Positions 13,533-55,670 of a stretch of DNA of 64,000 bases are shown in pieces. The translations under genes and the position numbers were made by a program. The notes under the pieces are model-generated. The model was not told the DNA's origin, did not search any database, and saw only the letters and a list, made by a program, of their open reading frames with translations. Position 1 is the first letter of the stretch, and the number at the start of each line of letters is the position of its first letter. This DNA is from Marmoricola sp. (GTDB taxonomy: Bacteria > Actinomycetota > Actinomycetes > Propionibacteriales > Nocardioidaceae), in the NCBI GenBank assembly GCA_025965195.1, contig JAOPXK010000120.1, positions 1-64,000 on the forward strand, in the 5' to 3' direction.

Positions 13533-16500
13533 TGCCTGTCTTCCAGCTCGCCCTCGAGCTCGAGGTAGACCTGCTGCATCGCCGCGAGGACGTCGGGATC
13601 GGGCTCCTCCCACAGGTCCCGCTCGGCCGCCTCGTGCAGACGCTCGATGATCCCCCGCAACGCCCACGGGTTGGCCTCACGCATGAACTCCTGGTTGGTC
13701 TCGTCGAGGACGTACTCCCTGGCGAGTGCGTCGTACATCCAGTCGTGCACGACGCCGGCGGTCGCGTCGAACCCGTAGAGGTAGTCGACGGTGGCGGCCA
13801 GCTCGAATGCGCCCTTGTAGCCATGCCGTTGCATTGCGCTGATCCAGCGCGGGTTGACCACGCGGGCCCGGAAGACCCGAGCGGTCTCCTCCTGGAGTGA
13901 GCGCGTGCGTACGGCGTCAGGGGTGGTCGAGTCCCCGACATAGGCCCGCGGCGCCGAGCCGGTCAGTGCACGGACCGTCGCGATCATGCCGCCGTGGTAC
14001 TGGAAATAGTCGTCGGAGTCGGCGATGTCGTGCTCACGGGTGTCGATGTTCTTCGCGGCAACGGCGATCCGCCGGTAGTTCGCCCGCATGTCGTCGCCGG
14101 CCTCGGTGCCGTCGAGCCCGCGGCCGTACGCATAGCCGCCCCACGCCGTGTAGACCTCGGCCAGGTCCTTGTCGTCATGCCAGTTGCCGGACTCGACGAC
14201 CTGCAGGATGCCTGCGCCGTACGACCCGGGCTTGGAACCGAAGATCCTGGTCGTCGACCGGCGCGCGTCGCCGTGCTCCCTGAGGTCGGCCTGGGCATGC
14301 GCTCGGACGAAGTTCAGGTAGTCCGGCTCGTCCAGCTCGGCGGCCATCCGGACCGCGTCGTCGAGCATCGCCACGACGTGCGGGAAGGCGTCCCGGAAGA
14401 AGCCCGAGATCCGGACCGTCACGTCGATGCGGGGACGACCGAGCTCCTCCAGCGAGATCACCGTGAGCCCGTTCACCCGACGGGAGGCTTCGTCCCATTC
14501 GGGTCGAATCCCCAACAGGGCAAGGACCTCCGCGACATCGTCGCCCGACGTACGCATCGCGCTGGTGCCCCAGGCCGAGAGACCGACGGACCTCGGATAG
14601 TCGCCGGTCTCCTGTTGGTAGCGCGTCAGCAGCGAGTCGGCCATCGCCACGCCGGTCTCCCAGGCGAGCCGGCTCGGGACCGCCTTCGGGTCGACGGTGT
14701 AGAAGTTCCGCCCGGTCGGCAGCACGTTGACCAGGCCCCGGAGCGGAGAGCCGCTCGGACCAGCGGGGATGAAGCCGCCGTCGAGCGCGTGGAGAACTGC
14801 GTCCAGCTCGTTGGTCGTCTGGTTGAGCCGCGGCACGACCTGCGTGGCGGCGAACTCGAGGATCTTCGCCACCGCCGGATCCGGGTCGCGACCTCCGAGA
14901 CCCTGCCCGTCGAGGATGGCGGGGATCGCGTCGACGGACCAGCTCGCCTGTTCCATCGCCGCGACGAGTGCCTTCGCCCTCTCCTCGACGGCGTCGACCT
15001 CCTTGCTGGTGGTCGAGCCTGCCGAGATCGCACCCTCCTTGAGACCGAGCGCAGTCCTCAAGCCAGGAAGGGATCCTGCCTCACCGCCCCAGATCTGGGT
15101 GGCGCGCAGGATCGCGAGGACCAGGTTGACGCGGGCCTCCCCTACGGGCGCCTGCCCGAGGATGTGCAGGCCGTCACGGATCTGCGCGTCCTTGACCTCA
15201 CAGAGCCAGCCGTCCAGATGGAGAACGAGGTCGTCGAACGCTTCCCCTTCGAAGTCGCCCAGCTCTCCCTCCAGGCCGAGGTCGCGATGCAGCTGCGCGG
15301 CCTGCATCAAGGACCAGATCTGCGCCCGGATCATCGGGAGCTTCCCCGGGTCCATCGCGGCGATGTTGGCGTACTCGTCCAGCAGCTGCTCGAGCCTCGC
15401 GATGTCGCCGTACGACTCCGCGCGCGCCATCGGCGGCACCAGGTGGTCGATGATCGTGGCGTGTGCGCGACGCTTGGCCTGGGCGCCCTCGCCCGGATCG
15501 TTGATCAGGAACGGGTAGATCAGCGGCAGGTTGCCGAGCACGGCATCTGTCGCGCAGGACGCAGACAGGGCGGCGTTCTTGCCGGGCAGCCACTCCATCG
15601 ACCCGTGCTTGCCGAGGTGCACGATCGCGTGGGCGCCGAAGCCGCGCTCCACCCAGCGGTAGGCCGCAAGGTAGTGATGGCTCGGTGCGAGGTCGGGGTC
15701 GTGATAGATCGCGACCGGGTTCTCACCGAAGCCGCGGGGTGGCTGGATGAGGAGCACCACGTTGCCCGCGCGCAGCGTGGCCAGCACGATCTCCTTTGCG
15801 TCATTGACGAAAAGAGTTCCCGGGCCCTCGCCCCACGCCTCGGTGATCTGCGCCTTCAGGACCTCGGGGACGTCGGCCGTCCACTTCTCGTAGTCCTGCT
15901 CCGAGATCCGGACATGACTGTCGGTGAGCTGGGCGGTGGTCAGCCACTCCTCGTCCTGTCCACCCGCCGCGATGAGGGCATGGATCAGGGCGTTGCCCGC
16001 CTCGGTGTCGGTCATGGTGGTCTCGACGAGCTCGACCACCGGGTTGTCGACCCCGAGGTCGTAGCCGGCGTCACGAAGCTTGCGAAGCAGCCGGATCGTG
16101 GAGACCGGGGTGTCGAGGCCGACGGCATTGCCGACGCGCGAGTGCTTGGTCGGGTACGCCGACAACATCAGTGCCAGACGCTTGTCCTTGTTGGGGATTC
16201 TCCTCAGCCGGGCGTGCGCGACCGCGATGCCGGCGACCCTGCGGCAGCGCTCTTCGTCAGCCTGATATCTCGGCAACCCGGCTGGATCATCGCGATCGAC
16301 CTCCTTGAACGAGAACGGAGCCGTGATGATCCGACCGTCGAACTCCGGGATCGCGATCTGGTTGGCGGAGTCGAGTGGTGACACGCCTTCAGCACTCGCC
16401 TCCCAGTCCTCGCGGCTGGACGTGAGGCAGAGCCCTTGCAGGACGGGGATGTCGAGTGCCTTCATCCGATCGACATCCCACGCCTCGTCGTCCTCACCGG

Positions 16501-17200
16501 CGCTCGCGGCGGCTGGCTTGGTGCCGCCGCCGGCAAGGACGGTGACAACCAGCGCATCGAGCGAACCGAAGGCGGCATAGAGCTCATCGGGCGCGGCGCG
16601 CAGCGAGCTGCTGAAGATCGGCAGCCCGACCGCCTCGCCGGTCGCATCGATCGCATCAGCGAGGGTGTGGGCAAAGGCGTTGTTGCCGCTCGCCTCGTGG
16701 GCCCGGTAGTAGAGCACCCCGATCTTCGGGAGCTCTCGACGGCGGTCGAGCGCGGTCGAGACCCGCGGACTCCAGCCCCATTCGGGCAGCACGGCGGGAG
16801 GCTCGAACCCCTCGCCGGTGAGCAGGACCGTGTCGCAGAGGAACCCGTGCAGGTTGGCCAGGTTCGCCGGACCGCCCTGGGCGAGGTAGGCGTGCGCCTC
16901 TGCCGCCGTTCCGACCGGCACCGTCGAATGGCTCATCAGCTCGGCGTCTGGCGTGGTCTCGCCTCCGAGGACGACGACCGGGGCGCCGTAGGCCAGGACA
17001 GCGTCCAGACCGGCCTGCCAGGAGCGCGCGGTGCCGAGGATGCGGACGACTACCAGACTGCAACCTTCAAGCAGGCCTGGGATATCGGCGACGTCGAGCC
17101 GGGCAGGATTGGCCAGCTCGTAGTCGGAGCCGGCTGCTCGCGCACTCAGCAGATCCGTGTCCGAGGTGGACAGCAGGGCAATGCGTGGGCCGGTCGTCAA
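13529..17200 (-). CDS. cobN: Cobaltochelatase subunit CobN
   Basis: Large subunit of the ATP-dependent aerobic cobaltochelatase that inserts cobalt into hydrogenobyrinate a,c-diamide. 1223 aa, close to the usual 1200-1400. Conserved segments include YPTKHSRVGNAVGLDTP, the HLGKHGSMEWLPGK metal/porphyrin-site region, and GSKPGSYGAGILQ near the C-terminus. A short stretch at about residues 386-395, reading VVELVETT, comes from a dispersed DNA repeat (16016-16043) and looks inserted. The ATPase partner is the fused ChlI/ChlD protein at 24.6 kb, not CobS/CobT. The leader carries a cobalamin riboswitch; a GGAGG-like site lies just before the ATG. Confidence 0.95.
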   Translation of the reverse strand: MTTGPRIALLSTSDTDLLSARAAGSDYELANPARLDVADIPGLLEGCSLVVVRILGTARSWQAGLDAVLAYGAPVVVLGGETTPDAELMSHSTVPVGTAAEAHAYLAQGGPANLANLHGFLCDTVLLTGEGFEPPAVLPEWGWSPRVSTALDRRRELPKIGVLYYRAHEASGNNAFAHTLADAIDATGEAVGLPIFSSSLRAAPDELYAAFGSLDALVVTVLAGGGTKPAAASAGEDDEAWDVDRMKALDIPVLQGLCLTSSREDWEASAEGVSPLDSANQIAIPEFDGRIITAPFSFKEVDRDDPAGLPRYQADEERCRRVAGIAVAHARLRRIPNKDKRLALMLSAYPTKHSRVGNAVGLDTPVSTIRLLRKLRDAGYDLGVDNPVVELVETTMTDTEAGNALIHALIAAGGQDEEWLTTAQLTDSHVRISEQDYEKWTADVPEVLKAQITEAWGEGPGTLFVNDAKEIVLATLRAGNVVLLIQPPRGFGENPVAIYHDPDLAPSHHYLAAYRWVERGFGAHAIVHLGKHGSMEWLPGKNAALSASCATDAVLGNLPLIYPFLINDPGEGAQAKRRAHATIIDHLVPPMARAESYGDIARLEQLLDEYANIAAMDPGKLPMIRAQIWSLMQAAQLHRDLGLEGELGDFEGEAFDDLVLHLDGWLCEVKDAQIRDGLHILGQAPVGEARVNLVLAILRATQIWGGEAGSLPGLRTALGLKEGAISAGSTTSKEVDAVEERAKALVAAMEQASWSVDAIPAILDGQGLGGRDPDPAVAKILEFAATQVVPRLNQTTNELDAVLHALDGGFIPAGPSGSPLRGLVNVLPTGRNFYTVDPKAVPSRLAWETGVAMADSLLTRYQQETGDYPRSVGLSAWGTSAMRTSGDDVAEVLALLGIRPEWDEASRRVNGLTVISLEELGRPRIDVTVRISGFFRDAFPHVVAMLDDAVRMAAELDEPDYLNFVRAHAQADLREHGDARRSTTRIFGSKPGSYGAGILQVVESGNWHDDKDLAEVYTAWGGYAYGRGLDGTEAGDDMRANYRRIAVAAKNIDTREHDIADSDDYFQYHGGMIATVRALTGSAPRAYVGDSTTPDAVRTRSLQEETARVFRARVVNPRWISAMQRHGYKGAFELAATVDYLYGFDATAGVVHDWMYDALAREYVLDETNQEFMREANPWALRGIIERLHEAAERDLWEEPDPDVLAAMQQVYLELEGELEDRQ
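16016..16043. repeat. Dispersed repeat, GGTCGAGCTTGTCGAGACC family, inside cobN
   Basis: One copy of a short imperfect palindrome found at five places in this window. Read in cobN it gives VVELVETT. A weaker relative lies at 16741-16763 in the same gene. Confidence 0.75.
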
Positions 17201-17242
17201 CGGTGCCTCCTGGGGGTTCTCGCCCCTTGTGAAAGGTGCGCC

Positions 17243-17334
17243 CGATGGCCAGTGTCTGGCTGCACCCCTCGGTCGAAGCGGGTGTCACAGTGGCGGAACC
17301 GCCCCGGACTTGCACCGGGTTCCTGTTCCATCGG
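17243..17334 (-). ncRNA. Cobalamin riboswitch upstream of cobN
   Basis: Reading the minus strand, the adenosylcobalamin core is clear: GGAACCCGGTGCAAGTCC, then the B12 box GCCACTGTGA, then GCAGCCAGACACTGG. A closing P1 helix pairs CGATGG with CCATCG at the two ends given. It ends about 43 bases before the cobN ATG and starts 14 bases after the stop of the CbiX/ferredoxin-like gene. It should lower cobN-cobF expression when B12 is plentiful. Confidence 0.92.
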
Positions 17335-17347
17335 ACGAGCGGCCAGC

Positions 17348-18037
17348 CTATGCCCGCGGCAGCCGGTGCGTCTCCACGGGGCAGCCGCCGACCAGGTGCT
17401 CGCCCACGATCCGGCGAGCCGCATCCGGGTCGACGCCGCCGTACCAGACGTCGTCGGGCTGCACGCTGATCACCGGCGCCCGGTTGCACGGGAACTGGCA
17501 GCCGGTGTGCACGAGGAGTACGTCGTCATCACCGAGATCGTGTTCCATCATCGCGATGATCACCGCCTCGACGGAGGCGTCCGAGCCCTTCGCCGTGCAA
17601 CGCGGGCCACGGCAGAGCATCACCTGATGCCGATGCGCGGTGACGTCCTCCCAGGCCGCCGAGGTGAGACCGGGCTCCTCACCGGTGATCGGTCGCAGGT
17701 CGGTAAGCACCGCGACGAGGGCGTCCGGCTCCAGTGAGTCGAGCAGCCGGGCAACAACATCGAGCACAGGCCGCTGACCTGCGCGTTCACGCCACCAGTA
17801 CGCCGCAATCCGCCGCAGCCACGAGTGCGCCGGAGCCAGTCGACCGAGGCTCACGCCGACGAGGACGATGCGCGAGACGCCCTCGTCGGCCAGTCGGGTC
17901 AGCTCGCGCGACAGCGACGGATCGCCCTGCTGCAGGAACGCGATCGAGCCGCCGGCGGAGGCCGCCAGGACCGCCAGCTCGTCGCGGCTACCGACCTCCT
18001 GGACCGACATCCCGACGAGCAGGAGCACGTCAGCCAT
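17348..18037 (-). CDS. CbiX-like domain fused to thioredoxin-like [2Fe-2S] ferredoxin domain
   Basis: 229 aa. The N-terminal half (LLLVGMSV, IAFLQQGDPSLSRELTRLADEG, RIVLVGVSLG) resembles a CbiX/sirohydrochlorin chelatase half-domain. The C-terminal half has the cysteine spacing of thioredoxin-like [2Fe-2S] ferredoxins: CRGPRC, then CQFPC, followed by a VWYGGV segment. Such genes sit in B12 clusters and may supply electrons for corrin-ring steps or help cobalt handling; neither is proven. Start 18037 is chosen because GGGAG lies 8 bases upstream; an ATG at 18082 is also in frame. It is upstream of the cobN riboswitch, so it may escape that control. Confidence 0.8.
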   Translation of the reverse strand: MADVLLLVGMSVQEVGSRDELAVLAASAGGSIAFLQQGDPSLSRELTRLADEGVSRIVLVGVSLGRLAPAHSWLRRIAAYWWRERAGQRPVLDVVARLLDSLEPDALVAVLTDLRPITGEEPGLTSAAWEDVTAHRHQVMLCRGPRCTAKGSDASVEAVIIAMMEHDLGDDDVLLVHTGCQFPCNRAPVISVQPDDVWYGGVDPDAARRIVGEHLVGGCPVETHRLPRA

Positions 18038-18110
18038 CGAAGGTCTCCCGGTCTCGTCGTCTGGTCCCGCAGATTGCCACACCGTGGCCCGCGGCCTAGC
18101 ATCGGCCCAT

Positions 18111-18207
18111 CACGTTGTGCCGAGGAAGCTGGTGAGATTCCAGCACGGTCACGCCACTGTGACCAGTTCACGCAAGTGTTCTGGCAGTCAGGTCATCGCT
18201 CAACGTG
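18111..18207 (+). ncRNA. Cobalamin riboswitch upstream of cbtB-cbtA
   Basis: Core elements are visible: GAGGAAGCTGGTGAGATTCC, the B12 box ACGCCACTGTGA, and GGCAGTCAGG near the end. The P1 helix pairs CACGTTG (18111-18117) with CAACGTG (18201-18207). It is followed by the AAGGAG ribosome site of cbtB. Expected to switch off cobalt uptake, and possibly the whole cobG-cobH-cobIJ operon behind it, when B12 is high. Confidence 0.93.
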
Positions 18208-18253
18208 TTGCCACCATCCGCGGAACGTTGTATTCCCGAAGGAGCACTTCAGC

Positions 18254-18478
18254 ATGAGCCTGTCTTCTGCATCCCCCCTTGCTGTCCCCCTCAGCACCCC
18301 CCTCGTCACCGTCCAGGTGCGCACGGTGCTGCTGCTGGCCGGCACGGCATTCCTGGCGCTGTTGGCCTACTACTTCATCGGCGTCGACGAGGGCGCGATG
18401 TCCGTCTTCGGCAAGTCGACGATGATTCACGAGTTCTTCCACGACGGTCGGCACTTCGCCGGCTTCCCCTGCCACTGA
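18254..18478 (+). CDS. cbtB: Cobalt transporter subunit CbtB
   Basis: 74 aa with one membrane helix at about residues 26-46 and a histidine-rich C-terminal end (HEFFHDGRHFAGFPCH) that is the CbtB metal-binding signature. Works with CbtA in cobalt import. AAGGAG lies 9 bases before the ATG. It is the first gene after a cobalamin riboswitch, and cbtA follows after 27 bases. Confidence 0.93.
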   Translation: MSLSSASPLAVPLSTPLVTVQVRTVLLLAGTAFLALLAYYFIGVDEGAMSVFGKSTMIHEFFHDGRHFAGFPCH

Positions 18479-18505
18479 TCCATCCGGGCAGCGGGAGAAC
18501 TCAAT

Positions 18506-19357
18506 ATGGAGAAGAAACTCATCGGCCGCGGCGTGCTCGTCGGCGCCGGCTCTGGTCTGCTTGCCTTCGTGTTCGCGCGGATCTTCGCCGAACCGATCAT
18601 CTCGAAGGCCATCGCCTACGAGTCGGGTCGCGACGCAGCTCAGGCCCTGCTCGACAGAGCCTCCGGGATCACCCCTGAGGCCGCCGGATCGGAGATCTTC
18701 AGCCGGACGATCCAGGCCGACATCGGGCTCGGCGTGGGCCTGATCCTGCTGGGCGCCGCGATGGGCGCGCTGTTCGCGGTCGCCTACGTGATCTGCCTCG
18801 GCCGGACCGGCAGGGTCCGTCCCCGCCAGCTCTCGCTGCTCGTGGCGACCGGTGGCTTCCTCGGGATGTTCCTGGTCCCGTTCATCAAGTACCCCGCGAA
18901 CCCGCCGTCGATCGGGCACGAGGACACGATCCAGCAGCGCGGCGCGCTGTACCTGATCCTGGTGTTCTGCTCGGTCCTGTTCCTCGTGCTCGCGGTGATG
19001 CTCGGCCAGCGGCTGGGCAAGCGGTTCGGCAACTGGAACGCGAGCCTGCTGGCAGGTGCGGCGTACGTCGTGGCAGTCGGGATCGTGATGGTCATCGAGC
19101 CGTCCCTCGGGCATCTGCACAACAACATCGCGGAGTACGGCCGACACGCGACCGAGACGCCGCTGCCCCTGCGCGATCCGCACGGCCAGATCGTCTACCC
19201 GGGTTTCTCGGCGGACCTGCTGTTCTCGTTCCGGTTCTACTCCGTAGCCGCCCAGCTGATCCTGTGGGCGGCCATCGGACTGGTGTTCGCGCCCCTTGCC
19301 GAGCGCCTGCTGACCCCGGACGAGGTCCGCTCTCGCCGGGAGGCGGTCGGGGTTTGA
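18506..19357 (+). CDS. cbtA: Cobalt transporter subunit CbtA
   Basis: 283 aa with about five to six membrane helices, the first at about residues 5-24. Family features include the N-terminal RGVLVGAGSGLLAFVFARIFAEP and conserved FLVPFIKYPANPPSIGHEDTI with histidine and acidic residues between helices. Predicted cobalt importer, known only together with CbtB. The stop overlaps the TTG start of cobG, so the B12 synthesis genes behind it are translationally coupled to cobalt uptake. Confidence 0.93.
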   Translation: MEKKLIGRGVLVGAGSGLLAFVFARIFAEPIISKAIAYESGRDAAQALLDRASGITPEAAGSEIFSRTIQADIGLGVGLILLGAAMGALFAVAYVICLGRTGRVRPRQLSLLVATGGFLGMFLVPFIKYPANPPSIGHEDTIQQRGALYLILVFCSVLFLVLAVMLGQRLGKRFGNWNASLLAGAAYVVAVGIVMVIEPSLGHLHNNIAEYGRHATETPLPLRDPHGQIVYPGFSADLLFSFRFYSVAAQLILWAAIGLVFAPLAERLLTPDEVRSRREAVGV

Positions 19358-20223
19358 CCGCGCTACGCACCCGCGGTGACCTGTGTCCGGGAGTTGCCCG
19401 GCCATGGGTCGCGGCGGACGGCGCGCTGGTCCGCCTGCGCCTTGTCGGTGGCCAGATCTCCCTTGCTGCACTGGGGAAGCTAGCCGATGTCTCCTCGCGG
19501 TACGGCGATGGCGACATCCATCTCACCACCAGGGCGAACCTCCAGCTCCGGGGACTTCCCGCTGCCGACGGTCTCCTGCCGGCCGAGGTCGTCGACACGC
19601 TCGCCGCCACCGGTCTGGTGCCATCGCCGAGCCACGAGCTGGTCCGCAACGTGATGGTTTCGCCGCTGACCGGAATCTCCGGTGGGCGGGCGGACCTGCG
19701 CCCGGTCGCTCGTGCCCTCGACGCGGGCCTGTGTGCAGCGCCTCTGCTCGCGTCACTCCCGGCGCGGTTCCTCTTCGTGCTCGACGACGGTCGCGGCGAC
19801 GTGGCCGGGCGCTCGCTCGACCTCGGGCTGGTCGCGCTCTCGGCCACGACCGCGCAGCTGCGCTTCGGCTCCGCGTGGGGGCCAGTGGTCGGCCTCGGCG
19901 AGGCGCCCGCCCGGCTGTTGTCGCTGGCTCATCGCTTCCTCGAATCCCGGGGCGACGGCGCCACCGCGGCCTGGCACGTCGCGGAGCTGGACCGCCCGCT
20001 CGCCCCTGGGCAAGATCCTGATCCGCTCGCGCCCACTGCGACCGCGCCGCCGACCTTTGCGGACGTGACCCATCTCGACGTACCCGCCGGCGTGCTGACG
20101 CCGGCCCTCATCGATGGCCTGCTCGGCTCCGGCGTCGATCGGCTGGTGGTCACCCCCTGGCACGGCGTACTCCTGATCGATCCTTCGGTCGATCGTTCGG
20201 TCGATCGTTCGGGGCAAGCGTGA
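19354..20223 (+). CDS. cobG: Precorrin-3B synthase CobG (short form)
   Basis: Oxidises precorrin-3A to precorrin-3B, the oxygen-requiring step of the aerobic route. 289 aa. The nitrite/sulfite reductase ferredoxin-like half is recognisable: GDIHLTTRANLQLRG and RNVMVSPLTG. It is shorter than typical CobG (about 360-460 aa), and I see only two cysteines (LCPGV, LCAAP), so the usual four-cysteine iron-sulfur site is not evident. The start is a TTG overlapping the cbtA stop (TTGA), with GGGAGG upstream. The last codons come from a 12-bp tandem repeat (about 20182-20214) reading SVDRSVDRS. Overlaps cobH by GTGA. Confidence 0.85.
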   Translation: MTALRTRGDLCPGVARPWVAADGALVRLRLVGGQISLAALGKLADVSSRYGDGDIHLTTRANLQLRGLPAADGLLPAEVVDTLAATGLVPSPSHELVRNVMVSPLTGISGGRADLRPVARALDAGLCAAPLLASLPARFLFVLDDGRGDVAGRSLDLGLVALSATTAQLRFGSAWGPVVGLGEAPARLLSLAHRFLESRGDGATAAWHVAELDRPLAPGQDPDPLAPTATAPPTFADVTHLDVPAGVLTPALIDGLLGSGVDRLVVTPWHGVLLIDPSVDRSVDRSGQA

Positions 20224-22432: not shown

Positions 22433-22433
22433 C

Positions 22434-24376: not shown

Positions 24377-24404
24377 GGGCGAGACGATATCGTTGCCCCG
24401 GTAA

Positions 24405-24570
24405 GGCGTGAGGTGCCCCAAGAGTCCGGCTCGGTCAGCGGGCTCGCGGGGAGAATCAGGGAAGCCGGTGAAAGTCCGGCACAGGCCCGCTGCGGTGACC
24501 CAGGTTTGGCGGAGCAAGTCCTTTGGACTTGGTCAGCTGGACCGGGAAGTCCGAAGACCGGCCTCGCGCC
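24405..24570 (+). ncRNA. Cobalamin riboswitch upstream of the ChlI/ChlD cobaltochelatase gene
   Basis: The core GGGAAGCCGGTGAAAGTCC, the B12-box variant CCGCTGCGGTGACC and the 3' segment AGTCCGAAGACCGGC are clear. P1 pairs GGCGTGAGG (24405-24413) with CCTCGCGCC (24562-24570). The region is longer than the other three because of an extended peripheral arm around 24515-24550. Confidence 0.93.
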
Positions 24571-24575
24571 CCGCA

Positions 24576-24597
24576 GCGCCCGTCAACTGACGGGCGC
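24576..24597 (+). terminator. Strong hairpin after the chelatase riboswitch (expression platform)
   Basis: A 10-bp perfect stem, GCGCCCGTCA with TGACGGGCGC and a 2-nt loop, lies 6 bases after P1 of the riboswitch. No T-run follows, so it may be a terminator without U tract or a structure that controls access to the GGGAG site before the ATG at 24625. Confidence 0.6.
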
Positions 24598-24624
24598 ACC
24601 GATGGTTGACGAGCGGGAGCCTCG

Positions 24625-27308: not shown

Positions 27309-29773
27309 CCCTGCCGCGACTCGTCATCGCGGCGCCGGCCTCTGGCCACGGCAAGACCACCGTCGCCACCGGGCTGATGGCCGCCCTCTCCCGAGCCGGT
27401 CACGTGGTCAGTGGCCACAAGGTCGGGCCGGACTACATCGACCCGGGCTATCACGCGCTCGCGACCGGTCGGTCCGGTCGCAACCTCGATCCGCACCTGG
27501 TGGGGGAATCCCTCCTCGTGCCACTGCTCCTGCACGGGGCTGCGGGAGCGGACATCGCAGTGGTGGAAGGTGTGATGGGCCTCTACGACGGCCAGATCGG
27601 CGGCAACGGCTTCGCCTCGACGGCCCATGTCGCCGCTGTCACGCGCACCCCGGTCGTCCTTGTCGTCGATGTCTCCCACGCATCCCGCTCCATCGCTGCG
27701 ACCGTGCACGGGATGACCACCTGGGACCCCTCGGTCGACGTGGTCGGGGTGATCCTCAACAAGGCCGGCTCGCAGCGCCACGCCGACGAGGTGCTCGCCT
27801 CACTCGGTACGTCGATCCCGGTGCTCGGCGTACTCCAGCGCGATGACGGCATCATCGCTCCGTCCCGCCACCTCGGACTGGTGCCCGCCGCCGAACGCTC
27901 CGACGCGGCCCACGCCCTCGACCGCCTCGCCGCCCAGGTGGCCGACAAGATCGATCTGGAAGCCGTGGTCCGGCTGGCCTCGGCCGCACCCGACCTGCCC
28001 GACCCGCCCTGGGATCCTTCTTCGGTGGTCGAGCCTGTCACTTCGGTGGTCGACCACCGGAAGCCTCTCATCGCGATGGCCGGCGGCCGCGCCTTCACCT
28101 TCCGGTACGCCGAGACCGAGGAGCTGTTGCGGGCCGCCGGGTGCGAGGTCGTCACCTTCGACCCGATGACAGCTGCTGCGCTGCCGGCAGCGACGACCGG
28201 GATCTATCTCGGCGGTGGCTTCCCCGAGGTGTACGCCGCCGACCTCTCCGCCAACACCCCGCTCCGCGAGGACCTTCGGGCTGCGATCGCCGCCGGTGTG
28301 CCAACGGTCGCGGAGTGCGCGGGTCTGCTCTACCTCTGCCGGACCGTCCGTCCCGCCGACGGTCCGCCGGCCGCGATGATCGGGGCGCTCGGCGTGGACG
28401 CCGTGATGGGTCCGCGGCTGACCCTGTCGTACCGGACCGCGCACAGCCCGGCCGACAATGTGCTGACCGCCGAGGGCCAGCAGGTCACCGGCCACGAGTT
28501 CCACCGCACGGTGCTGCTGGACCACCAGAACGCCAACCCTGCCTGGGAGTTCGCCACTCCGGAGGGGCCGATCCTTGCGGGGTTCGCGACGCCGACCGTG
28601 AACGCGTCCTACCTCCACACCCACTGGGCCGGACATCCGGCTCTCGCCCAGCGCTTCGCTGACGCCGCCGCCCGCACCCCCCGGTGGTCGAGCCAACCCC
28701 GGCGGTCGAGCTTGTCGAGACCCCTCCCGACCGTGATCTCGACAAGGCCGATCACCGCCACTCCCGGCTACGACCTGCGGCACCACGGTGACCGCGAGGC
28801 ACTCGACGGTCTCCTCGACTTCGCCGTCAACGTCTACGACGACCACCGACCCGGCTGGCTCGACGATGCCCTCACCCGGAGCCTGGCCGACGCACATCGC
28901 TACCCCGACACGACGAATGCCCAACAGGCGTTGGCGAAACGGCACCACGTCCAGTCGGAGCAGGTGCTCCCGACTGCTGGAGCCTCGGAGGCGTTCGGGC
29001 TGATCGCCAGGCTCCGGGACTGGCGGCATCCGGTCGTCGTACATCCACAGTTCACGGAGCCGGACGTCGCGCTGACCGAGGCCGGCCATCCGCCCCGCCA
29101 TCTGGTTCTCGATGCCCGCAAGGGCTACCGGCTCGACCCGGCCGCGGTTCCCGCCGAGGCGGATCTGGTCGTGATCGGCAACCCGACCAACCCGACCGGT
29201 GTCCTGCACCCGAGGGCGGCGATCGAGGAGCTGTTGGAGCCCGGCCGGGTCGTCGTCGTCGACGAGGCGTTCCTCGAGGACGGCCTCGAGTCCCTTGCCG
29301 CCGACCCGCGCGAGGGACTGATCGTCGTGCGCAGCCTCACCAAGCTCTGGTCGATCCCGGGCATCAGGGCCGGCTACCTGCTCGGAGATCCGGACACTGT
29401 CCAGCAGCTCGCCACGGGTCAGGCTCCGTGGTCGGTCTCGACGACGGCCGCGGCCGCCATGGTGGCCTGCAGCGCTCCAGCTGCCGAGGTCGAGACTCTC
29501 CGCCGTGTCGAGGCGATCTGCGAGCGGCGGCGGCTCCTCGTCGATGGGCTGGACCGGCTCGGCATCCCGTTCGTGGCCGGTTCGCGGGCCCCGTTCGTGC
29601 TGGCGAAGCCCGGTCCGGCGATGCGGGAGGCGTTGCTCACAAGGGGGATCGCCGTCCGCCGCGCCGACACCTTCCCCGGGCTCGGACCCGACTGGATCCG
29701 GATCGCCGTACGCCGGCAGCGTCCGACCCAGAGGCTGCTGGACGCCCTCTCGGACATCAGCCGGACCCCCTGA
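27302..29773 (+). CDS. cobB: Fused cobyrinate a,c-diamide synthase (CobB) and CobC-type PLP enzyme
   Basis: 823 aa. Residues 1-about 459 are CobB: ATP site VIAAPASGHGKTTVATGL, VGPDYIDPGYH, the amidotransferase nucleophile in VAECAGLLYL and the closing HTHWAGHP. Residues about 488-823 are a class II aminotransferase-like CobC/CobD domain (Rv2231c family), with VIGNPTNPTG and the PLP lysine in SLTKLWSIPGIRAGYL; it should make the aminopropanol phosphate arm. The junction (about 460-487) is low-complexity, encoded by copies of the dispersed repeat, as is a stretch near 240-253 (VVEPVTSVVD). No stop or frameshift separates the parts. Most genomes keep these as two genes. Confidence 0.93.
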   Translation: MVTLPRLVIAAPASGHGKTTVATGLMAALSRAGHVVSGHKVGPDYIDPGYHALATGRSGRNLDPHLVGESLLVPLLLHGAAGADIAVVEGVMGLYDGQIGGNGFASTAHVAAVTRTPVVLVVDVSHASRSIAATVHGMTTWDPSVDVVGVILNKAGSQRHADEVLASLGTSIPVLGVLQRDDGIIAPSRHLGLVPAAERSDAAHALDRLAAQVADKIDLEAVVRLASAAPDLPDPPWDPSSVVEPVTSVVDHRKPLIAMAGGRAFTFRYAETEELLRAAGCEVVTFDPMTAAALPAATTGIYLGGGFPEVYAADLSANTPLREDLRAAIAAGVPTVAECAGLLYLCRTVRPADGPPAAMIGALGVDAVMGPRLTLSYRTAHSPADNVLTAEGQQVTGHEFHRTVLLDHQNANPAWEFATPEGPILAGFATPTVNASYLHTHWAGHPALAQRFADAAARTPRWSSQPRRSSLSRPLPTVISTRPITATPGYDLRHHGDREALDGLLDFAVNVYDDHRPGWLDDALTRSLADAHRYPDTTNAQQALAKRHHVQSEQVLPTAGASEAFGLIARLRDWRHPVVVHPQFTEPDVALTEAGHPPRHLVLDARKGYRLDPAAVPAEADLVVIGNPTNPTGVLHPRAAIEELLEPGRVVVVDEAFLEDGLESLAADPREGLIVVRSLTKLWSIPGIRAGYLLGDPDTVQQLATGQAPWSVSTTAAAAMVACSAPAAEVETLRRVEAICERRRLLVDGLDRLGIPFVAGSRAPFVLAKPGPAMREALLTRGIAVRRADTFPGLGPDWIRIAVRRQRPTQRLLDALSDISRTP
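28021..28060. repeat. Dispersed GGTGGTCGAG repeat in the CobB part
   Basis: Two adjacent partial copies (GGTGGTCGAGCCTGTC and GGTGGTCGACCACC) lie between the two halves of the CobB domain and are read as SSVVEPVTSVVDH. Confidence 0.65.
28683..28746. repeat. Compound dispersed repeat at the cobB/cobC junction
   Basis: GGTGGTCGAG (28683), GGCGGTCGAGCTTGTCGAGACC (28701-28722) and an inverted CTCGACAAG (28738-28746). Translated in a different frame from the cobN copy, giving WSSQPRRSSLSRP. Confidence 0.75.
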
Positions 29774-29821
29774 TCGTCGCTGTGAGGGTCGCTGGGGACA
29801 GGCCCTAGGATGGCGGTACAA

Positions 29822-29907
29822 CCAGGCACGAGGAAGCCGGTGGAACTCCGGCACAGTCGCGCTACTGTGACATCGCTTCGGCGGTGGAGTCAGACCCGAA
29901 GGCCTGG
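29822..29907 (+). ncRNA. Cobalamin riboswitch upstream of cobT
   Basis: Core GAGGAAGCCGGTGGAACTCC, B12 box GCGCTACTGTGACATCG and 3' GGAGTCAGACCCGAAGG are clear. P1 pairs CCAGGC (29822-29827) with GCCTGG (29902-29907). It lies in the 180-base gap after the cobB-cobC stop, so cobT and cobS are controlled separately from the genes in front. Confidence 0.93.
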
Positions 29908-29953
29908 ATCAGATCCCCAATCATCGGGACGCACCATCCCGAAGGAGGACTCG

Positions 29954-31000
29954 ATGGCCTCGTCCATTCTCGCCCACGGCATCCCTGTTGACCCGCCCTC
30001 ACCGGCGATCCGGGCGGAGGCCGACGAGCGCCTCGCCGGCCTCGCCACCCCACCCGGAGCTCTCGGCCGGCTCGGGGAGCTGGGTGTGTGGGTGGCCGCC
30101 ACCCAGGGGCAGCTGCCACCCGCTCCTGTCGAGAACGTCCGGGCGGTGGTCTTCGCCGGCGACCACGGCGTCGCAGCCCATGGTGTCTCGGCCTTTCCTT
30201 CGGCCGTGACGCCTGCGATGGTCCGCACCTTCCTGTCCGGCCGGGCCGGTGTCTCGGCCCTCGCCAACGCTCATGGCGTCTCGGTCCGGGTGCTCGACAT
30301 CGCCGTCGACGACGACCTCGACGGGGTGGACCCGGAGGTGCAGCGCTTCAAGGTACGGCGCAGCAGCCGGCCTCTCCATCTCGAGGACGCCCTCACCGCC
30401 GAGGAGACCCAGGCCGCACTCGACGCGGGCGCCACTGTCGCCGCCGAGGAGATAGCGCTGGGTGCCCAGCTCCTGATCAGCGGCGACATGGGGATCGGCA
30501 ACACCACGCCGGCCGCGGCACTGATCGCTTCGTCCTACGGCCTACCTGCCAGCGAGGTGACCGGTCGCGGCACCGGCATCGACGACTCGTCCCTGATCGC
30601 CAAGCAGGAGCTCATCCAGCTGGCCCTCGATCGCACCGGCGACCTGGCTGCCTTCGAAACCCTTGCGGCGCTGGGCGGAGCAGATCTCGCCGCGTCCGTC
30701 GGCTTCATGGTCGCGGCCGCGCGCGCCGGCGTACCCGTGCTCCTCGATGGCGTCATCGCTGTCGCCTGTGCGGTGATCGCGGACCGCCTCGCGCCGGGCG
30801 CAGCGGCCTGGTTCGCAGCCGGTCACCGTTCCACCGAGCCCGCCCAGTCGCTCGCGCTCGAGAAGCTCGGGCTCGAACCGATCCTCGACCTGGGCATGCG
30901 CCTGGGTGAGGGCAGCGGTGCGGTTGCCGCCGTACCGGTCGTGCGTTCGGCCGCGGCCCTGCTCCGCGACGTCGCCCTGCTCTCCGAGCTCGCGCTCTGA
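29954..31000 (+). CDS. cobT: Nicotinate-nucleotide--dimethylbenzimidazole phosphoribosyltransferase CobT
   Basis: Makes alpha-ribazole phosphate for the lower ligand of B12. 348 aa. Motifs: PGALGRLGELG, VVFAGDHGVAAHGVSAFP, ISGDMGIGNTTPAAAL, VTGRGTGIDD, AGHRSTEPAQ and the catalytic glutamate in MRLGEGSGA. The ATG at 29954 is preceded by GAAGGAGG at 7 bases. In-frame codons upstream fall inside the riboswitch and are excluded. cobS follows after 5 bases. Confidence 0.95.
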   Translation: MASSILAHGIPVDPPSPAIRAEADERLAGLATPPGALGRLGELGVWVAATQGQLPPAPVENVRAVVFAGDHGVAAHGVSAFPSAVTPAMVRTFLSGRAGVSALANAHGVSVRVLDIAVDDDLDGVDPEVQRFKVRRSSRPLHLEDALTAEETQAALDAGATVAAEEIALGAQLLISGDMGIGNTTPAAALIASSYGLPASEVTGRGTGIDDSSLIAKQELIQLALDRTGDLAAFETLAALGGADLAASVGFMVAAARAGVPVLLDGVIAVACAVIADRLAPGAAAWFAAGHRSTEPAQSLALEKLGLEPILDLGMRLGEGSGAVAAVPVVRSAAALLRDVALLSELAL

Positions 31001-31005
31001 CGCTG

Positions 31006-31758
31006 ATGGACTCGTGGCGGCTGGCCGTCGGGACGTTGACGGCAATCCCGACCCGACCACCGGCCCGGGTCGACCGGTCGGTCACACGAGCCGCGATGTT
31101 GCTGGCTCCGGTCGCAGTGATCCCGCTCGGGCTGCTGGTGGCGCTGGTGCTCTGGGCCGGTCGGTCCCTGAACCTTGCGGCGTTTCCCGTTGCTGTGCTG
31201 GGGATTGGCGCTCTGGCGCTGGGCAGCCGGGCGTTCCACCTCGATGGCCTGTCGGACACGGCCGACGGTCTGACGGCTTCCTATGACCGGGAGCGCTCGC
31301 TCGCGGTGATGAAGTCCGGCAGCGCCGGACCGGCCGGGGTCGTCGCGATCGTGGTCGTGCTCGGGGTGCAGGTCGGCTCCCTCGCCGCGCTGGTGGCGGT
31401 GCCGGGTGGTCCCCTGCTGGCCGCATTCCTGATCTGTGCGTCGCGGGCGTCGCTGGCGCTGGCCTGTCTGGCCGGAGTGCCCGCTGCTCGCACCTCGGGG
31501 CTGGCGGTCTCCTATGCCGGCACCATCCCGCGCTGGCTCGCCTCCCTGATCTGGTTGGTCGCTGTCGGTTTGTCGACATATGCCTTCCGGCTGGCAGGCT
31601 TCGACCTCTGGCGCGGTCCGGTCGCGATGCTCGCCGGCGCGTTTGTCGTTGCCCTGTTGCTGATTCGGTGCGTACGCCGTTTCGGGGGCGTCACCGGTGA
31701 CGTCTTCGGGGCAGGCATCGAGCTCTGCCTGGCCGTGATGTTGCTGGCTTCGACGTGA
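31006..31758 (+). CDS. cobS: Adenosylcobinamide-GDP ribazoletransferase CobS
   Basis: Membrane enzyme that joins alpha-ribazole to adenosylcobinamide-GDP, the last assembly step. 250 aa with five to six hydrophobic helices and the family active-site motif FHLDGLSDTADGL (about residues 77-89). Directly follows cobT, so both share the riboswitch. Its stop is 5 bases from the convergent cobU stop. Confidence 0.95.
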   Translation: MDSWRLAVGTLTAIPTRPPARVDRSVTRAAMLLAPVAVIPLGLLVALVLWAGRSLNLAAFPVAVLGIGALALGSRAFHLDGLSDTADGLTASYDRERSLAVMKSGSAGPAGVVAIVVVLGVQVGSLAALVAVPGGPLLAAFLICASRASLALACLAGVPAARTSGLAVSYAGTIPRWLASLIWLVAVGLSTYAFRLAGFDLWRGPVAMLAGAFVVALLLIRCVRRFGGVTGDVFGAGIELCLAVMLLAST

Positions 31759-31763
31759 CCGGC

Positions 31764-32324
31764 TCAGAGCTTCAGGACCCGGCCGGCGATCACCAGGTGC
31801 ACTTCGTCGCAGGTGGCGGCGAACCGCTGGTTGACCGTCCCCAGGAGATCCCGGAAGAGCCGACCACTCGGATGGGCGGGGACGACTCCCAACCCGACCT
31901 CGTTCGTGACCAGGACGATCGAGTCAGCCTCGGCGACGGCCATGACCGCTGCATCCAGCGTCGCCTCGAAGGCGTCCTCCCACGCGGCCTTCGGCGTCTC
32001 CCAACCGTCAAGACCGTCGATGACGGCGGTCAGCCAGGTGCCCAGGCAGTCGACCAGAACAGTGCTGCCCCCGTGGTCGAGCTCCCGCCGGTGGTCGAGC
32101 TTGTCGAGACCACCCAGCACGCCGGCAAGGTCGGCCGTCTCGATGGTCGTCCAGTGGCCCGGCCGACGCTCCCGGTGAGCGCTGATCCGGGCGGCCCACT
32201 CGGGGTCGTTGCCGTCGGGCACCGGGCCAGGAGCGACGTAGGTGACGGCGGCCGCGCCGCTGACCAGCGACTCCGCGTGCGCGGACTTGCCGGAGCGCAC
32301 GCCACCGGTCACCAGGATCTTCAC
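31764..32324 (-). CDS. cobU: Adenosylcobinamide kinase/adenosylcobinamide-phosphate guanylyltransferase CobU
   Basis: Phosphorylates adenosylcobinamide and adds GMP. 186 aa. P-loop ILVTGGVRSGKSAHAE, VTYVAP, the R-x-x-H-W-T-like RRPGHWTTIET and LVDCLGTWL are typical; VLVTNEVGLGVVP closes the core. Residues about 71-84 (GLDKLDHRRELDHG) come from the dispersed repeat, just before the VLVDCL strand. GTG at 32324 is chosen, with GGTGGAG just upstream; a GTG at 32333 is an alternative. Divergent from cobD with about 23 bases between. Confidence 0.92.
   Translation of the reverse strand: MKILVTGGVRSGKSAHAESLVSGAAAVTYVAPGPVPDGNDPEWAARISAHRERRPGHWTTIETADLAGVLGGLDKLDHRRELDHGGSTVLVDCLGTWLTAVIDGLDGWETPKAAWEDAFEATLDAAVMAVAEADSIVLVTNEVGLGVVPAHPSGRLFRDLLGTVNQRFAATCDEVHLVIAGRVLKL
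32073..32114. repeat. Dispersed repeat inside cobU
   Basis: A partial copy (GTGGTCGAGC) followed by a full copy, GGTGGTCGAGCTTGTCGAGACC at about 32090-32112. Read on the minus strand as DKLDHRRELDH. Confidence 0.8.
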
Positions 32325-32347
32325 GGGCTCCACCCTAGGGCCGCCCG

Positions 32348-33304
32348 ATGAGGTCACGGGCGGCCGGACTGCTGCTCGGCTTCGTGGCGGACCGGCTCCT
32401 CGGTGACCCATCCCGCTGGCACCCGGTCGCCGGCTTCGGCCGGGCAGCGGCCGCTCTCGAGCGGGCTGTCCACGCGGACTCGCGGGCGCAGGGCGCCTGC
32501 TACACGACCGCTCTGGTGGGGTCGAGCACCCTTGTCGGGATGGCGATCGACAGCAGCCTTGGTCGGCGGCCAGTGCTGCACACGGTTGCCGTCGCGGCCG
32601 CCACCTGGGCCGTTCTCGGAGGAACGTCCCTCGGACGCGAAGCCTCCGCGGTCGAGCGGCTGCTCGCCGACGACGACCTCCCAGCAGCCCGGGATCGGCT
32701 GACCCACCTCGTGGGACGTGACACCTCCCGGCTCGATGCATCAGAGATTGCCCGGGCCACCATCGAGTCGGTCGCGGAGAACACCTCCGACGCCGTCGTC
32801 GCGCCACTGGTGCTCGGCGGGCTCGGTGGCATCGGTGGCCTGCTCGGCTACCGCGCCGCAAACACCCTCGACGCCATGGTCGGTCATCGCAGTGCGCGCC
32901 ACGAACGCTTCGGCTGGGCGTCGGCGCGACTGGACGACGTACTCAATGTCCCCGGATCACGCCTCTCCGCGCTGCTCGCCTGCGGGTTCGCCCCCGAGGG
33001 CCGTCGCCTCGAGGCGTTGCGGACCTGGCGCACGGACGCGGCTGGCCACCCCTCGCCCAACGCCGGCCCGGTCGAGTCGGCGTTCGCCGGCGCGTTGGGC
33101 GTCAGGCTCGGCGGGACCAACACCTATGGCAGCCGGGTCGAGCGCCGGCCCGTGATGGGATCGGGGCGTCCCGCGACGCCGACCGACATCGCCCGGGCCA
33201 TCCGGCTGGCGGACCGGGTCGGCTGGGGCGCGATCGTGCTCATTGCGCTCGCGTCGGGTCTCTCGCGACGACGGCCTACGGCGGGTCCTCGGACCCACGA
33301 CTGA
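32348..33304 (+). CDS. cobD: Adenosylcobinamide-phosphate synthase CobD/CbiB
   Basis: Membrane protein that attaches the aminopropanol arm to adenosylcobyric acid. 318 aa with several hydrophobic helices. Family motifs: [17 protein letters not shown] at the N-terminus, [20 protein letters not shown] and [13 protein letters not shown]. Its 3' end overlaps the convergent cobK by 29 bases, so the two transcripts are antisense there. Confidence 0.94.
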
Positions 33305-34028
33305 CCCACGCGAAGGCTGCTTCGGCATCGCCGACCACGTTCACGCTCGCCGGAGCTGGAGTACGGCGGACGATGACGACAGGGATGTCCAGCGCAGCGG
33401 CGGCAGCCATCTTGGGCCAGGTCCAGGTGCCACCGGAGTCCTTGGTGACGAGGACGTCGACGCGATGCTCGCGCATCAGTGCCAGCTCGGTCGCAAGCTC
33501 GTACGGACCTCGGCTGAGCAGGACCGTCCACTGGGCCGGGAGGTCGATCGCCGGTTGGTCAACGACCCGAACCAGCGCCTCGTGTGCCGCGAGCGGCCCG
33601 GCGAACCTGGCGAGGGACTGCCGACCGACGGTGAGAAACGCGCGATTCCCCTGCGTGGCAACGGCTTTCGCCGCCTCGTCGTGGTCGGCCACCCACGTCC
33701 AGGTGTGCGCTTCCGGAGCGTCGCCCCAGCCGGGTCGTTCCAGCCGGAGCAGGGGCACATCGTCGGCGGTGCACGCCGCGAGCGCATTGGCCGACATTCC
33801 CTGGGCGAACGGATGAGTCGCATCGACGACCGCCTCGATCCGCTCCGAGCGGAGGTAGGCACGCAGCCCGTCGACCCCACCGAACCCGCCGATCCGGACC
33901 TTCCCGACGGGAAGCCGTGGCCTGGCCACCCGGCCGGCGAGTGAGGACAGGAAATCCGTATCCGTCTCCTCGAGCAGCTTCGCCAGCGCCCGCGCCTCCG
34001 CCGTACCCCCCAGGACCAGAGTCCTCAA
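33276..34028 (-). CDS. cobK: Precorrin-6A reductase CobK
   Basis: NADPH-dependent reduction of precorrin-6A to dihydro-precorrin-6. 250 aa. [42 protein letters not shown]-like [10 protein letters not shown] and [17 protein letters not shown] are diagnostic. The start is a TTG at 34028 overlapping the cobQ stop (TTGA), matching the expected N-terminus; a longer in-frame form would run 78 residues back into cobQ and is rejected. Confidence 0.94.
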
Positions 34029-35506
34029 CGTGTCGCGCCCGGAGGGAGCACTCGGAGGCTTGTTGGAGCGCCGGTCTCCGCGAGCGCCAACAGGGCGTCC
34101 ACGTCGAGGTGCTCCTCGACCAGATCGCCGAGAAGGTCGAGGCGTGCCTCGCGTCGCTCGGGAAAGCTGACCCCGGAAGGCACCCGCGTCAGGCCCGCGA
34201 TCGAGGCGACCTCTGCCAGCAGCGCCTGGCGAAACCCGTCGCTCTCGAGGCTGCCGTGCCACATCGTGGCGAACACGTTGTCGCTGCGAGCACCGCCGGG
34301 GAAGTCGTCGGCCGAGCCGCGGGTGAGCCGGCCGTGGTGGATTTCGTAGCCCGACACGGGTTGGCCGTACGCCGTGCCGCTCGGTAGCCGGAGCACCTTC
34401 TCCATCTCGAACGTGGTCGTCACGTCAAGCAGTCCCAGTCCTTCCGCAAAAGCCCCGGCGGAGCCTTCGACGCCCGCCGGATCCGAGATCGACCTCCCGA
34501 GCATCTGGGCCCCGCCACAGATCCCGAGGACCGACCGACCGGCGGCAGCATGTGCGGTGACCGCGCGGTCGAGCCCCCGGGACCGCAACCAGTCCAGGTC
34601 GGCGAGCGTCGCCCGGGTGCCCGGCAGGACGACCAGGTCGGCGGTCGCCAGATCCCGTGGCTCGGTGCAGAAGAAGACGTCGAGGTCGGGCTCGAGGCCG
34701 AGCGCGTCGACGTCGGTGAAGTTCGAGATCCGGGGCAACCGGAGCACGGCGACCCGCAACGTCGCATCCGCATCGGTGCGGCGACCCTCGAGGTCGAGCG
34801 CGTCCTCGGAGTCGAGCCACAGGTCCGGGTGCCAGGGCAGCACGCCGTAGACGGAACGCCCGGTCAGCCGCGCCAGCTCGTCCAGCCCGGGAGTCAGCAG
34901 CGTCGGGTCACCGCGGAACTTGTTGATCACGAAGCCCGCCAACAACGCCTGGTCAAGCGGCTCGAGCAGGGCCAGCGTCCCGTACATCGACGCAAACACC
35001 CCGCCCCGGTCGATGTCGCCGACCACCACCGTCGCGATGCCGGCGTGGCGGGCCAGGCCCATGTTGACGTAGTCACCCGCCCGGAGGTTGATCTCGGCCG
35101 GGCTTCCGGCACCTTCGGCGACGACCAGGTCGAAGCGCGAGGTGAGGTCGTCGAACGCGTCGTACGCCGCCCGCGCGAGATGCCGCCGCCCCTCGAGCCA
35201 GTCGCTCGATGCGACCTCACCCGCAGGCTGGCCCATCACGACGACGTGGCTGCGCCGGTCGCCACCCGGCTTGAGCAGCACCGGGTTCATGGCCGGCTCC
35301 GGAGTCGCACCTGCGGCCAGCGCCTGGATCCACTGCGCCCGGCCGATCTCGCCGCCCCCGGCGGTCACCATCGAGTTGTTGGACATGTTCTGCGCCTTGT
35401 ACGGCGCCACCTTGATCCCCCGTCGCGCGAAGGCCCGGCACAAGCCGGTCGTGACGATGCTCTTGCCGGCGTCCGACGTCGTCCCGGCAACCAGGAGGGC
35501 GCTCAT
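34025..35506 (-). CDS. cobQ: Cobyric acid synthase CobQ
   Basis: Glutamine-dependent amidation of four carboxyls of adenosylcobyrinate a,c-diamide. 493 aa. N-terminal synthetase: [50 protein letters not shown]-terminal amidotransferase: nucleophile cysteine in [11 protein letters not shown] and GYEIHHGR. The ATG at 35506 overlaps the SURF1 stop as ATGA, so cobQ translation depends on the SURF1 gene in front; cobK follows by TTGA. Confidence 0.95.
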
Positions 35507-36279
35507 GCGTCGACCTCGTTGGTTGCGTCCTCCCCGGTCGCCGAGTCCGAGGCCCGCGTCGGATCCAGGGTGTCGCGGCACCACCGCACCCAGATGAACA
35601 CCGCGAAACCGGCGAAGACCCACCACTGCACCGCGTAGAGGATGTTGCGCAGGCCGGTGAACTCCGAGGGAGCCGGGATCGACGAAGGCGTCACCTTCTT
35701 CAAACCTTCGGTCCCGGTCGCGGTGGTCGAGCTTGTCGAGACCACATCCCGTGCGACCACGTACCCCGAGTAGAGATCTGTCCTGATTCGCTCGACCAGG
35801 CTCGCCACCCGCATCGACGGGATCACGTCGTCATGGGTGTTGGTGTCGATGGTGTCGTCACCCTGGGAGGCCTGCAACCAGCCGGTCACCTTCACCGTGC
35901 CCGCGGGCACCGCCGCGGTCGGCTTCGCAGACCAGCCCCGGACGACCGGCATCGCGGACTTCCCGATCAGCACCGGCGTCACGACCCAGTAGCCATTGCG
36001 GTTGTCGAGGAAGCTGTCGGCGACGTACACCGTGCCGGCTGGCAACCAGCTGCCGGTGAACGTCACCGGCTGACCGAGCGACTTGCCGGGGAACGGGCTG
36101 TCGCCGCCCATCAGCGAGGAGAGCGGTACGGCGGCGACGTTGGCCAGGCTGCGAGCAGCATCATCACGGTGATGGCTCCAGGCGCCGTACTGCCAGAACC
36201 CGAGTGCCACGGCTGCAGCCGTACAGAAGACCATCAGCAGATGCCCGCCCCAGAAGCGAGGGGCAAGCAGGGTGAGCAC
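35503..36279 (-). CDS. SURF1 family protein
   Basis: 258 aa. SURF1 proteins help assemble heme-copper cytochrome oxidase. The layout fits: an N-terminal helix (about 12-30), an external domain with VTFTGSW and VVTPVLIG-VVRGW segments, and a C-terminal helix (about 208-228: LRNILYAVQWWVFAGFAVFIW). Residues about 179-186 (VVSTSSTT) come from the dispersed repeat and add a linker inside the external domain. Coupled to cobQ by an ATGA overlap; why a respiratory assembly factor leads the cobQ-cobK operon is not obvious. Confidence 0.9.
   Translation of the reverse strand: MLTLLAPRFWGGHLLMVFCTAAAVALGFWQYGAWSHHRDDAARSLANVAAVPLSSLMGGDSPFPGKSLGQPVTFTGSWLPAGTVYVADSFLDNRNGYWVVTPVLIGKSAMPVVRGWSAKPTAAVPAGTVKVTGWLQASQGDDTIDTNTHDDVIPSMRVASLVERIRTDLYSGYVVARDVVSTSSTTATGTEGLKKVTPSSIPAPSEFTGLRNILYAVQWWVFAGFAVFIWVRWCRDTLDPTRASDSATGEDATNEVDA
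35721..35745. repeat. Dispersed repeat inside the SURF1 gene
   Basis: CGGTGGTCGAGCTTGTCGAG plus ACCAC: a full-length copy. Translated from the minus strand as VVSTSSTT, a third reading of the same DNA. Confidence 0.8.
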
Positions 36280-36358
36280 TGGCCAAGCCTACGGGTGCTC
36301 CCCTCGGCGACCGGCGGACGGTCGAGCGCGGCCGAGACCCCTGTGTCAGGATCGGCCC

Positions 36359-55667: not shown

Positions 55668-55670
55668 GCA

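Follow-up and report, generated by a model that had tools for sequence, protein, structure and literature searches.

The 64-kb window (the whole stretch of Marmoricola DNA that was analysed, 64,000 nucleotides) carries four full copies of a short dispersed element, in which variable pairing arms surround a fixed asymmetric core, GAGCYTGTCGA. We read it as a short, untagged, REP-like palindrome that has spread as selfish DNA, moved by some trans-acting factor, with no Y1 (RAYT) transposase detectable in the carrier genomes tested; to this reading we give a probability of roughly 0.6. As single-stranded DNA the element could fold into a hairpin that has a loop of five bases and a bulge of two. 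The arms differ from taxon to taxon by compensating changes around an unvarying core, a pattern suggesting that such a factor recognises the core together with the paired arms. We infer that the element is mobile and that its copies spread as selfish DNA; neither a target-site duplication, nor a transposition event, nor an empty and an occupied site in near-identical strains was seen. Together, the fixed core and covarying arms, present in several phyla, offer a concrete handle for finding the recognising protein, and the copies inside genes constitute a natural experiment on how proteins tolerate short insertions.

Copies in the window and the genome

The window contains five matches to the 19-mer GGTCGAGCTTGTCGAGACC within three mismatches, against 0.07 expected from shuffled sequence. 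Four are full copies: three exact, on the + strand, and one on the − strand with a single mismatch (Table 1). They lie in predicted cobN, cobB-cobC fusion, cobU, and SURF1 genes, called with a home-made gene finder and each backed by Pfam matches. The initial annotation described a repeat in five genes. The repeat is real, but the full copies number four, in four genes: the site placed at 28683 is the upstream half-unit of the copy at 28704, and the site at 28021 lacks a complete core. The annotation was right that the copies are translated in different frames, and right about weaker relatives at 16741 and 36323: the first keeps the arms around another loop; the second is intergenic, and its core is altered as well. 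The dimer in the fusion gene lies within the linker that joins the CobB glutamine amidotransferase domain to the CobC-type aminotransferase domain, and is read WSSQPRRSSLSRP.

Table 1. Copies and relatives of the element in the window
Feature	Positions	Strand	Location and reading
Full element, loop CTCG, 1 mismatch	16019..16037	-	cobN (13529-17200, -), variable loop; VVELVETT
Dimer: truncated half-unit (from 28686) and full element (28704-28722, 0 mismatches)	28686..28722	+	CobB-CobC fusion
Dimer: half-unit (from 32075) and full element (32093-32111, 0 mismatches)	32075..32114	+	antisense in cobU (31764-32333, -); GGLDKLDHRRELDHG
Full element, 0 mismatches	35725..35743	+	antisense in SURF1 gene (35503-36279, -); VVSTSSTT
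Half-unit (28027-28041) and short palindrome (28045-28059); complete core absent	28027..28059	+	CobB part
Relative: arms as in full element, loop CGCGG	16744..16763	+	cobN
Weaker relative: core ends in CCGA, not TCGA	36320..36339	+	intergenic
3-mismatch relative, possibly a decayed copy	15011..15029	+	cobN; ISAGSTTS

Four copies in 64 kb do not make a significant cluster (Poisson p = 0.08). A search of the whole Marmoricola assembly (3.97 Mb, 200 contigs) found the repeat dispersed: 200 places within three mismatches of the 19-mer, 99 within one, and 64 exact, where the reversed-pattern control gave 12 within three mismatches. Confinement of the copies to the cobalamin block, as first annotated, thus holds inside the window but not in the genome, and the genome-wide spread rules out an association with cobalamin genes.

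A fixed core between covarying arms

In an 864-kb sample of the same genome the core occurs 60 times, as compared with seven, four, two, and two occurrences of its reversed and shuffled versions. At least four contiguous arm bases are paired at 27 of these 60 sites and at none of the control sites. Ten distinct fully paired four-base arm types occur in all: GGTC/GACC, GATC/GATC, GGTT/AACC, CATC/GATG, CCCT/AGGG, TGTC/GACA, GCCT/AGGC, GGCT/AGCC, TGGT/ACCA, and TCCT/AGGA. Stretches sampled from other genomes carry their own assortments: GGTT/AACC in G018; CATC, CGTC, and GATC in G015; GGTC and CGTC in G019.

Covariation is clearest on plasmids, where arm positions 1 to 4 are paired in 21, 20, 19, and 17 of 21 sites (shuffle means 15.9, 11.5, 8.6, and 7.0). 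The best of 500 shuffles of the 3' arm reached 19, 20, 15, and 13, so that position 2 ties with the best shuffle and positions 1, 3, and 4 exceed them all. In the named Nocardioides every shuffle is surpassed at positions 3 and 4, but positions 1 and 2 do no better than shuffles; in the Marmoricola sample, positions 1, 2, and 3 exceed all shuffles and position 4 does no better.

Searches blind to the core return it. The pattern TGGTC-N11-GACCA in the Marmoricola sample enclosed GAGCTTGTCGA at 16 of 28 sites, GAGCTCGTCGA at two, and GAGCCTGTCGA at one (counts over both strands, halved). Five proteobacterial plasmid stretches, each selected for one core site, were searched with TTCG/CTCA plus palindromic 4+4 arms around N11; the core occupied 11 of 16 distinct sites, and a further site held the near-core GAGCGTGTCGA. 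Two other prefixes on those stretches gave four sites, none with the core.

When the four window copies are folded as single-stranded DNA, three adopt the same hairpin, with a GCTTG or GCTCG loop and a two-nucleotide bulge (z −2.8, −1.4, and −1.9); a typed idealised copy reaches z −3.6. The copy at 28704 folds without that hairpin (z +0.6), and two weak-arm variants, a 43-nt dimer, and one Sphingobium copy fold no better than their shuffles. Fold stability is thus modest, and it is chiefly the covariation that argues for pairing.

Spread through other taxa

Each of 24 same-genus genomes holds between 3 and 203 places within three mismatches of the 19-mer. Among 296 sampled Actinobacteria, 16 (the Marmoricola genome included) match it within one mismatch, and among complete relatives two genomes have the exact pattern, at eight and 27 places, and three lack it. 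A slightly extended core is patchy across 396 Actinobacteria: most have counts close to the control level or under it, and the few genomes with an excess over the control include G065 (51 against 6), G345 (60 against 13), G327 (26 against 2), and G248 (14 against 0). Matches listed for an exact 25-mer include several Nocardioides, Cryobacterium, Promicromonospora, Arthrobacter, Paraoerskovia, and one metagenome-assembled genome (MAG) from the Spirochaetaceae. The spirochaete loci contain many inverted pairs, and their GC content of 47% argues against contamination by Nocardioides DNA.

The core itself was found in Actinomycetota, the spirochaete MAG, plasmids of alpha- and betaproteobacteria, and at one gammaproteobacterial site. 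An approximate query for another arm version gave 19-base matches (E 0.4 per match) in 18 of the 45 plasmid records found, including 13 from Sphingobium. The 22 core sites on six plasmid stretches (21 of them unique) include 18 whose arms have four or more paired bases, and several form inverted pairs within 100 bp. The gammaproteobacterial site, in Methylotuvimicrobium, is a single one, namely the one searched for, and its only support is a CCGTTCG flank that it shares with Sphingobium and Comamonas sites. Two plasmid records, from Arthrobacter, matched the Marmoricola arm type, and one matched the GGTT type; the Marmoricola type gave no match at E ≤ 0.05 in a phage collection, and one IMG/VR contig matched. 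Two of the six core-bearing plasmid stretches (L263 and L266) have cobalamin genes nearby, probably by coincidence.

Search for a transposase

The element resembles REPs in its size, its paired arms, its patchy spread, and the inverted pairs that some taxa show, which raises the possibility of an ordinary RAYT-mobilised REP family, whose RAYT gene has been lost, lies in a gap of the assembly, has diverged beyond the reach of PF01797, or acts from another replicon. The initial annotation had proposed looking for a RAYT-type transposase, and none was found. PF01797 (Y1_Tnp) has no match at E ≤ 10 in the Marmoricola genome, and no match reaches 0.001 in any of the 24 same-genus genomes, which include four single-contig assemblies. 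Nine other carrier genomes gave none above the cut-off, with one weak match (E 0.88); these tests covered the same-genus genomes and nine other, non-proteobacterial carriers. Y1_Tnp is present in four of 58 relatives, but the core is absent from the four loci concerned, and the two loci examined encode IS200-type proteins. With these observations, we think it rather improbable that the element belongs to a conventional RAYT family, and continue to favour movement by another trans-acting factor.

The four Y1 loci (3.2-3.4 kb) were thereby also rejected as REPtrons. The two IS200-type open reading frames are short (139 and 142 amino acids), and one adjoins an OrfB_IS605 gene; tblastn with one such transposase over plasmids returned 2,775 records.

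Placement around the replication origin

The fixed core could alternatively reflect a site useful to the host and kept by selection: a site for a nucleoid protein, gyrase, repair, or segregation, or an RNA hairpin. Dense intergenic clusters by rsmG-parA-parB in several named Nocardioides fit this idea, as does the intergenic location of 226 of 248 copies in the named Nocardioides sampled. Nevertheless, the core is absent near the parB gene of the Marmoricola genome, and 30 parB loci from 29 genomes contain a single paired copy. Copy number ranging from 3 to 203 within a genus is also awkward for a useful site, as is the absence of the three compared insertions from orthologues. A host function is accordingly an unlikely explanation, a little more so than a RAYT-mobilised family, and selfish spread remains the reading that we prefer.

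Six of the named Nocardioides loci (L105, L126, L121, L149, L120, and L091) are the densest of 74, with 13 to 24 cores each (overall median 2); they carry genes resembling rsmG, parA, parB, or neighbours near the origin (named by eye), and copies occupy most gaps. As a general rule, clustering of the repeat at the origin was ruled out in the Marmoricola genome and in the other relatives searched. A small GIY-YIG protein is flanked by copies at L105:119-409, L121:91-381, L126:2282-2587, and L149:6853-7143 (PF01541 was tested for L105). This recurrent gene is a lead only. Copy-flanked genes in general were rejected as an autonomous element; 26 were listed, many of them recurrent origin-region genes.

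The window has an R3H gene, rsmG, a gene for a ParA-type ATPase, and parB at 54424-57859, and therefore probably includes the neighbourhood of a replication origin. This region contains no copy of the core, and gene prediction placed nothing between R3H and rsmG.

Extra residues in proteins

The window proteins were aligned with orthologues wherever a locus was available: for CobU in 30 of 31 matching genomes, for CobN in 25 of 27, and for SURF1 in 30 from a larger match list. The residues encoded by the element were found in the window proteins only, and in none of the other orthologues aligned (29 CobU, 29 SURF1, and 24 CobN), so the initial annotation's proviso that they might be conserved protein sequence does not apply to these three. 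Across the 15 columns that the element spans in CobU, each of the 17 same-genus rows has 12 to 14 gaps, and the more distant rows have 8 to 12. SURF1 has VVSTSSTT where its orthologues carry fewer, unrelated residues. The expected clean in-frame insertion was thus borne out as extra sequence in CobU and SURF1, but not in CobN, where VVELVETT lies in a loop variable in both sequence and length and the alignment indicates replacement. Neither strand of the element contains a stop triplet; this, with the in-frame extra residues in CobU and SURF1, agrees with the earlier proposal that it can enter a gene without breaking it.

Other proteins hold comparable segments. Alignments with the two best PDB chains show gaps of six and four residues within SRSSTTG for a biotin carboxylase, and gaps of 11 and nine residues at STSSTTGAGST for a CFA synthase; for a rhodanese-like protein the PDB chain matches begin after the element site. 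Ten further host proteins include methylmalonyl-CoA mutase, two chorismate-binding enzymes, and penicillin amidase. In the cobN gene of one relative (L242, from G006), the CobN loop that has the element in the window carries a different and longer hairpin-like sequence, GGTTTCGAGACGCTCGCTGGCGCTCGCTCCTCAACC.

Frames, half-units, and genic placement

Reading frames were compared for 40 unique full copies whose arms are GGTC/GACC, drawn from the 864 kb of Marmoricola sequence and 30 loci; the sampled contigs were selected for holding copies, so their copy density is biased. Predicted genes contain 28 of the 40, significantly fewer than the coding fraction of 91.5% would give (p 8e-5); a broader list, which allows two mismatches, places 34 of its 44 matches inside genes. 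Five of the six frames are represented among the 28: antisense frame 2 (VSTSST) 17 times (p 2e-7), antisense frame 0 (LDKLDH) six, sense frame 2 (VVELVET) three, and two others once each; sense frame 0 has none. Of the 28 genic copies 17, and of the 12 intergenic copies 3, are preceded by a half-unit, GGTCGAGC, at a distance of exactly 18 nt. Where half-units are spaced by 15-23 nt, the spacing is a multiple of three in 20 of 21 genic as against three of seven intergenic cases (p 0.008).

Such non-random frames make the surviving insertions look filtered by peptide. The annotation's statement that selection cannot be on the peptide was therefore overstated, although it stands insofar as the shared sequence is explained by DNA. 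The DNA would spread, and selection among surviving insertions would keep mainly the VSTSST frame. An in-frame seat in protein loops would be open to this element because the Marmoricola type lacks stop triplets and often has its half-unit 18 nt upstream.

Placement varies by lineage. The spirochaete MAG has 19 of 33 copies in genes and the named Nocardioides, which are mostly N. luteus and its relatives, 22 of 248; small samples gave 9 of 9 (G035), 3 of 4 (G018), 4 of 11 (G019), and 0 of 5 (G015). The Marmoricola genome is rich in genic copies, yet not unique.

That conserved or low-complexity protein sequences share this DNA by chance is refuted for the copies tested and can be set aside almost entirely: two of the 44 listed matches within two mismatches do resemble acidic coding repeats (L031, VELDET), but one DNA sequence read in five frames, its absence from aligned orthologues, its intergenic copies, and its covarying arms all speak against this.

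Relation to known repeats

Elements of this kind are already known, in the form of REPs and the Rickettsia palindromic elements. As summarised in the accessible text of one survey, REPs and GTAG- and CGTC-tagged repeats are 20-40 bp hairpins of high copy number, with inverted dimers, compensating stem changes, and some intragenic copies; CGTC REPs are said to lack a dedicated transposase; and untagged REP-like sequences occur in M. tuberculosis and other species, the kinship of untagged palindromes being left open (Di Nocera 2013, PMC3733652). The word Actinobacter- is absent from that text. CGTC REPs, by its description, have a CGTC tag, an 8-9 bp stem, and a 4-5 base loop (PMC3733652); the arms and core seen here are different, and no unpaired CGTC tag was seen. 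Palindrome size, high copy number, and compensating stem changes, as far as that account goes, are general REP features that the present element shares; it differs in its long fixed asymmetric core and in being often intragenic in the Marmoricola genome. It differs from GTAG REPs in particular by the lack of an unpaired GTAG tag (its GTGG pairs with CCAC in three of the four folded window copies), and by the lack of an associated RAYT (Y1) gene in the same-genus and nine other carrier genomes.

REPINs consist of two inverted REPs that move as a unit with RAYT. Like them, the element is a short palindrome dispersed in a genome, and inverted pairs of it were seen in the spirochaete and on plasmids. 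However, no RAYT accompanies it in the genomes tested, and in the Marmoricola genome most copies stand singly or form direct dimers with a half-unit.

RPE-1 of Rickettsia is longer than the present element. Rickettsia palindromic elements are described as in-frame insertions in unrelated protein genes (PMC3733652), and in-frame insertion in protein genes, absent from orthologues, is what we observe; set against that partial description, the absence of stop triplets on either strand, the 18-nt half-units, and a core common to several phyla are distinctive. PARCELs, as portrayed in the accessible part of their report, are palindromic coding repeats, patchy across taxa, with a 25-residue amphipathic motif in tandem and a proposed horizontal spread (PMC2996958). 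The present element resembles that portrayal as a palindromic coding repeat patchy across taxa, but encodes unrelated peptides in different frames.

A fixed core that crosses phyla without RAYT was not found in the literature searched, in which sequences within figures were not searchable and supplements lay outside the search. Occurrences of an 11-base string that were checked are PCR primers or designed oligonucleotides; the remaining papers were judged by title.

More tentatively, the sites in at least Actinomycetota, Spirochaetota, and Pseudomonadota may all belong to one class of mobile repeats with the GAGCYTGTCGA core. In this wider proposal, which we hold as a possibility rather than an expectation, the fixed core would be recognised, the arms would drift in compensating pairs, and the copies would spread without a Y1 transposase; in some lineages they would have entered protein genes and would seed peptide loops.

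Other features of the window

A 92-bp near-perfect inverted repeat at 7131-7222 (TTTTCACAGGCTGTGAACCCA...) is possibly another dispersed palindrome, and a similar one occurs in L054 near 10.9 kb. Three cobalamin riboswitches reach the gathering score (17230-17372, 18109-18209, and 24405-24570), and a stretch at 29832 is similar to cobalamin riboswitches, though not called. Finally, a 12-bp tandem repeat (38189-38296) lies inside a predicted gene at 37916-38920.
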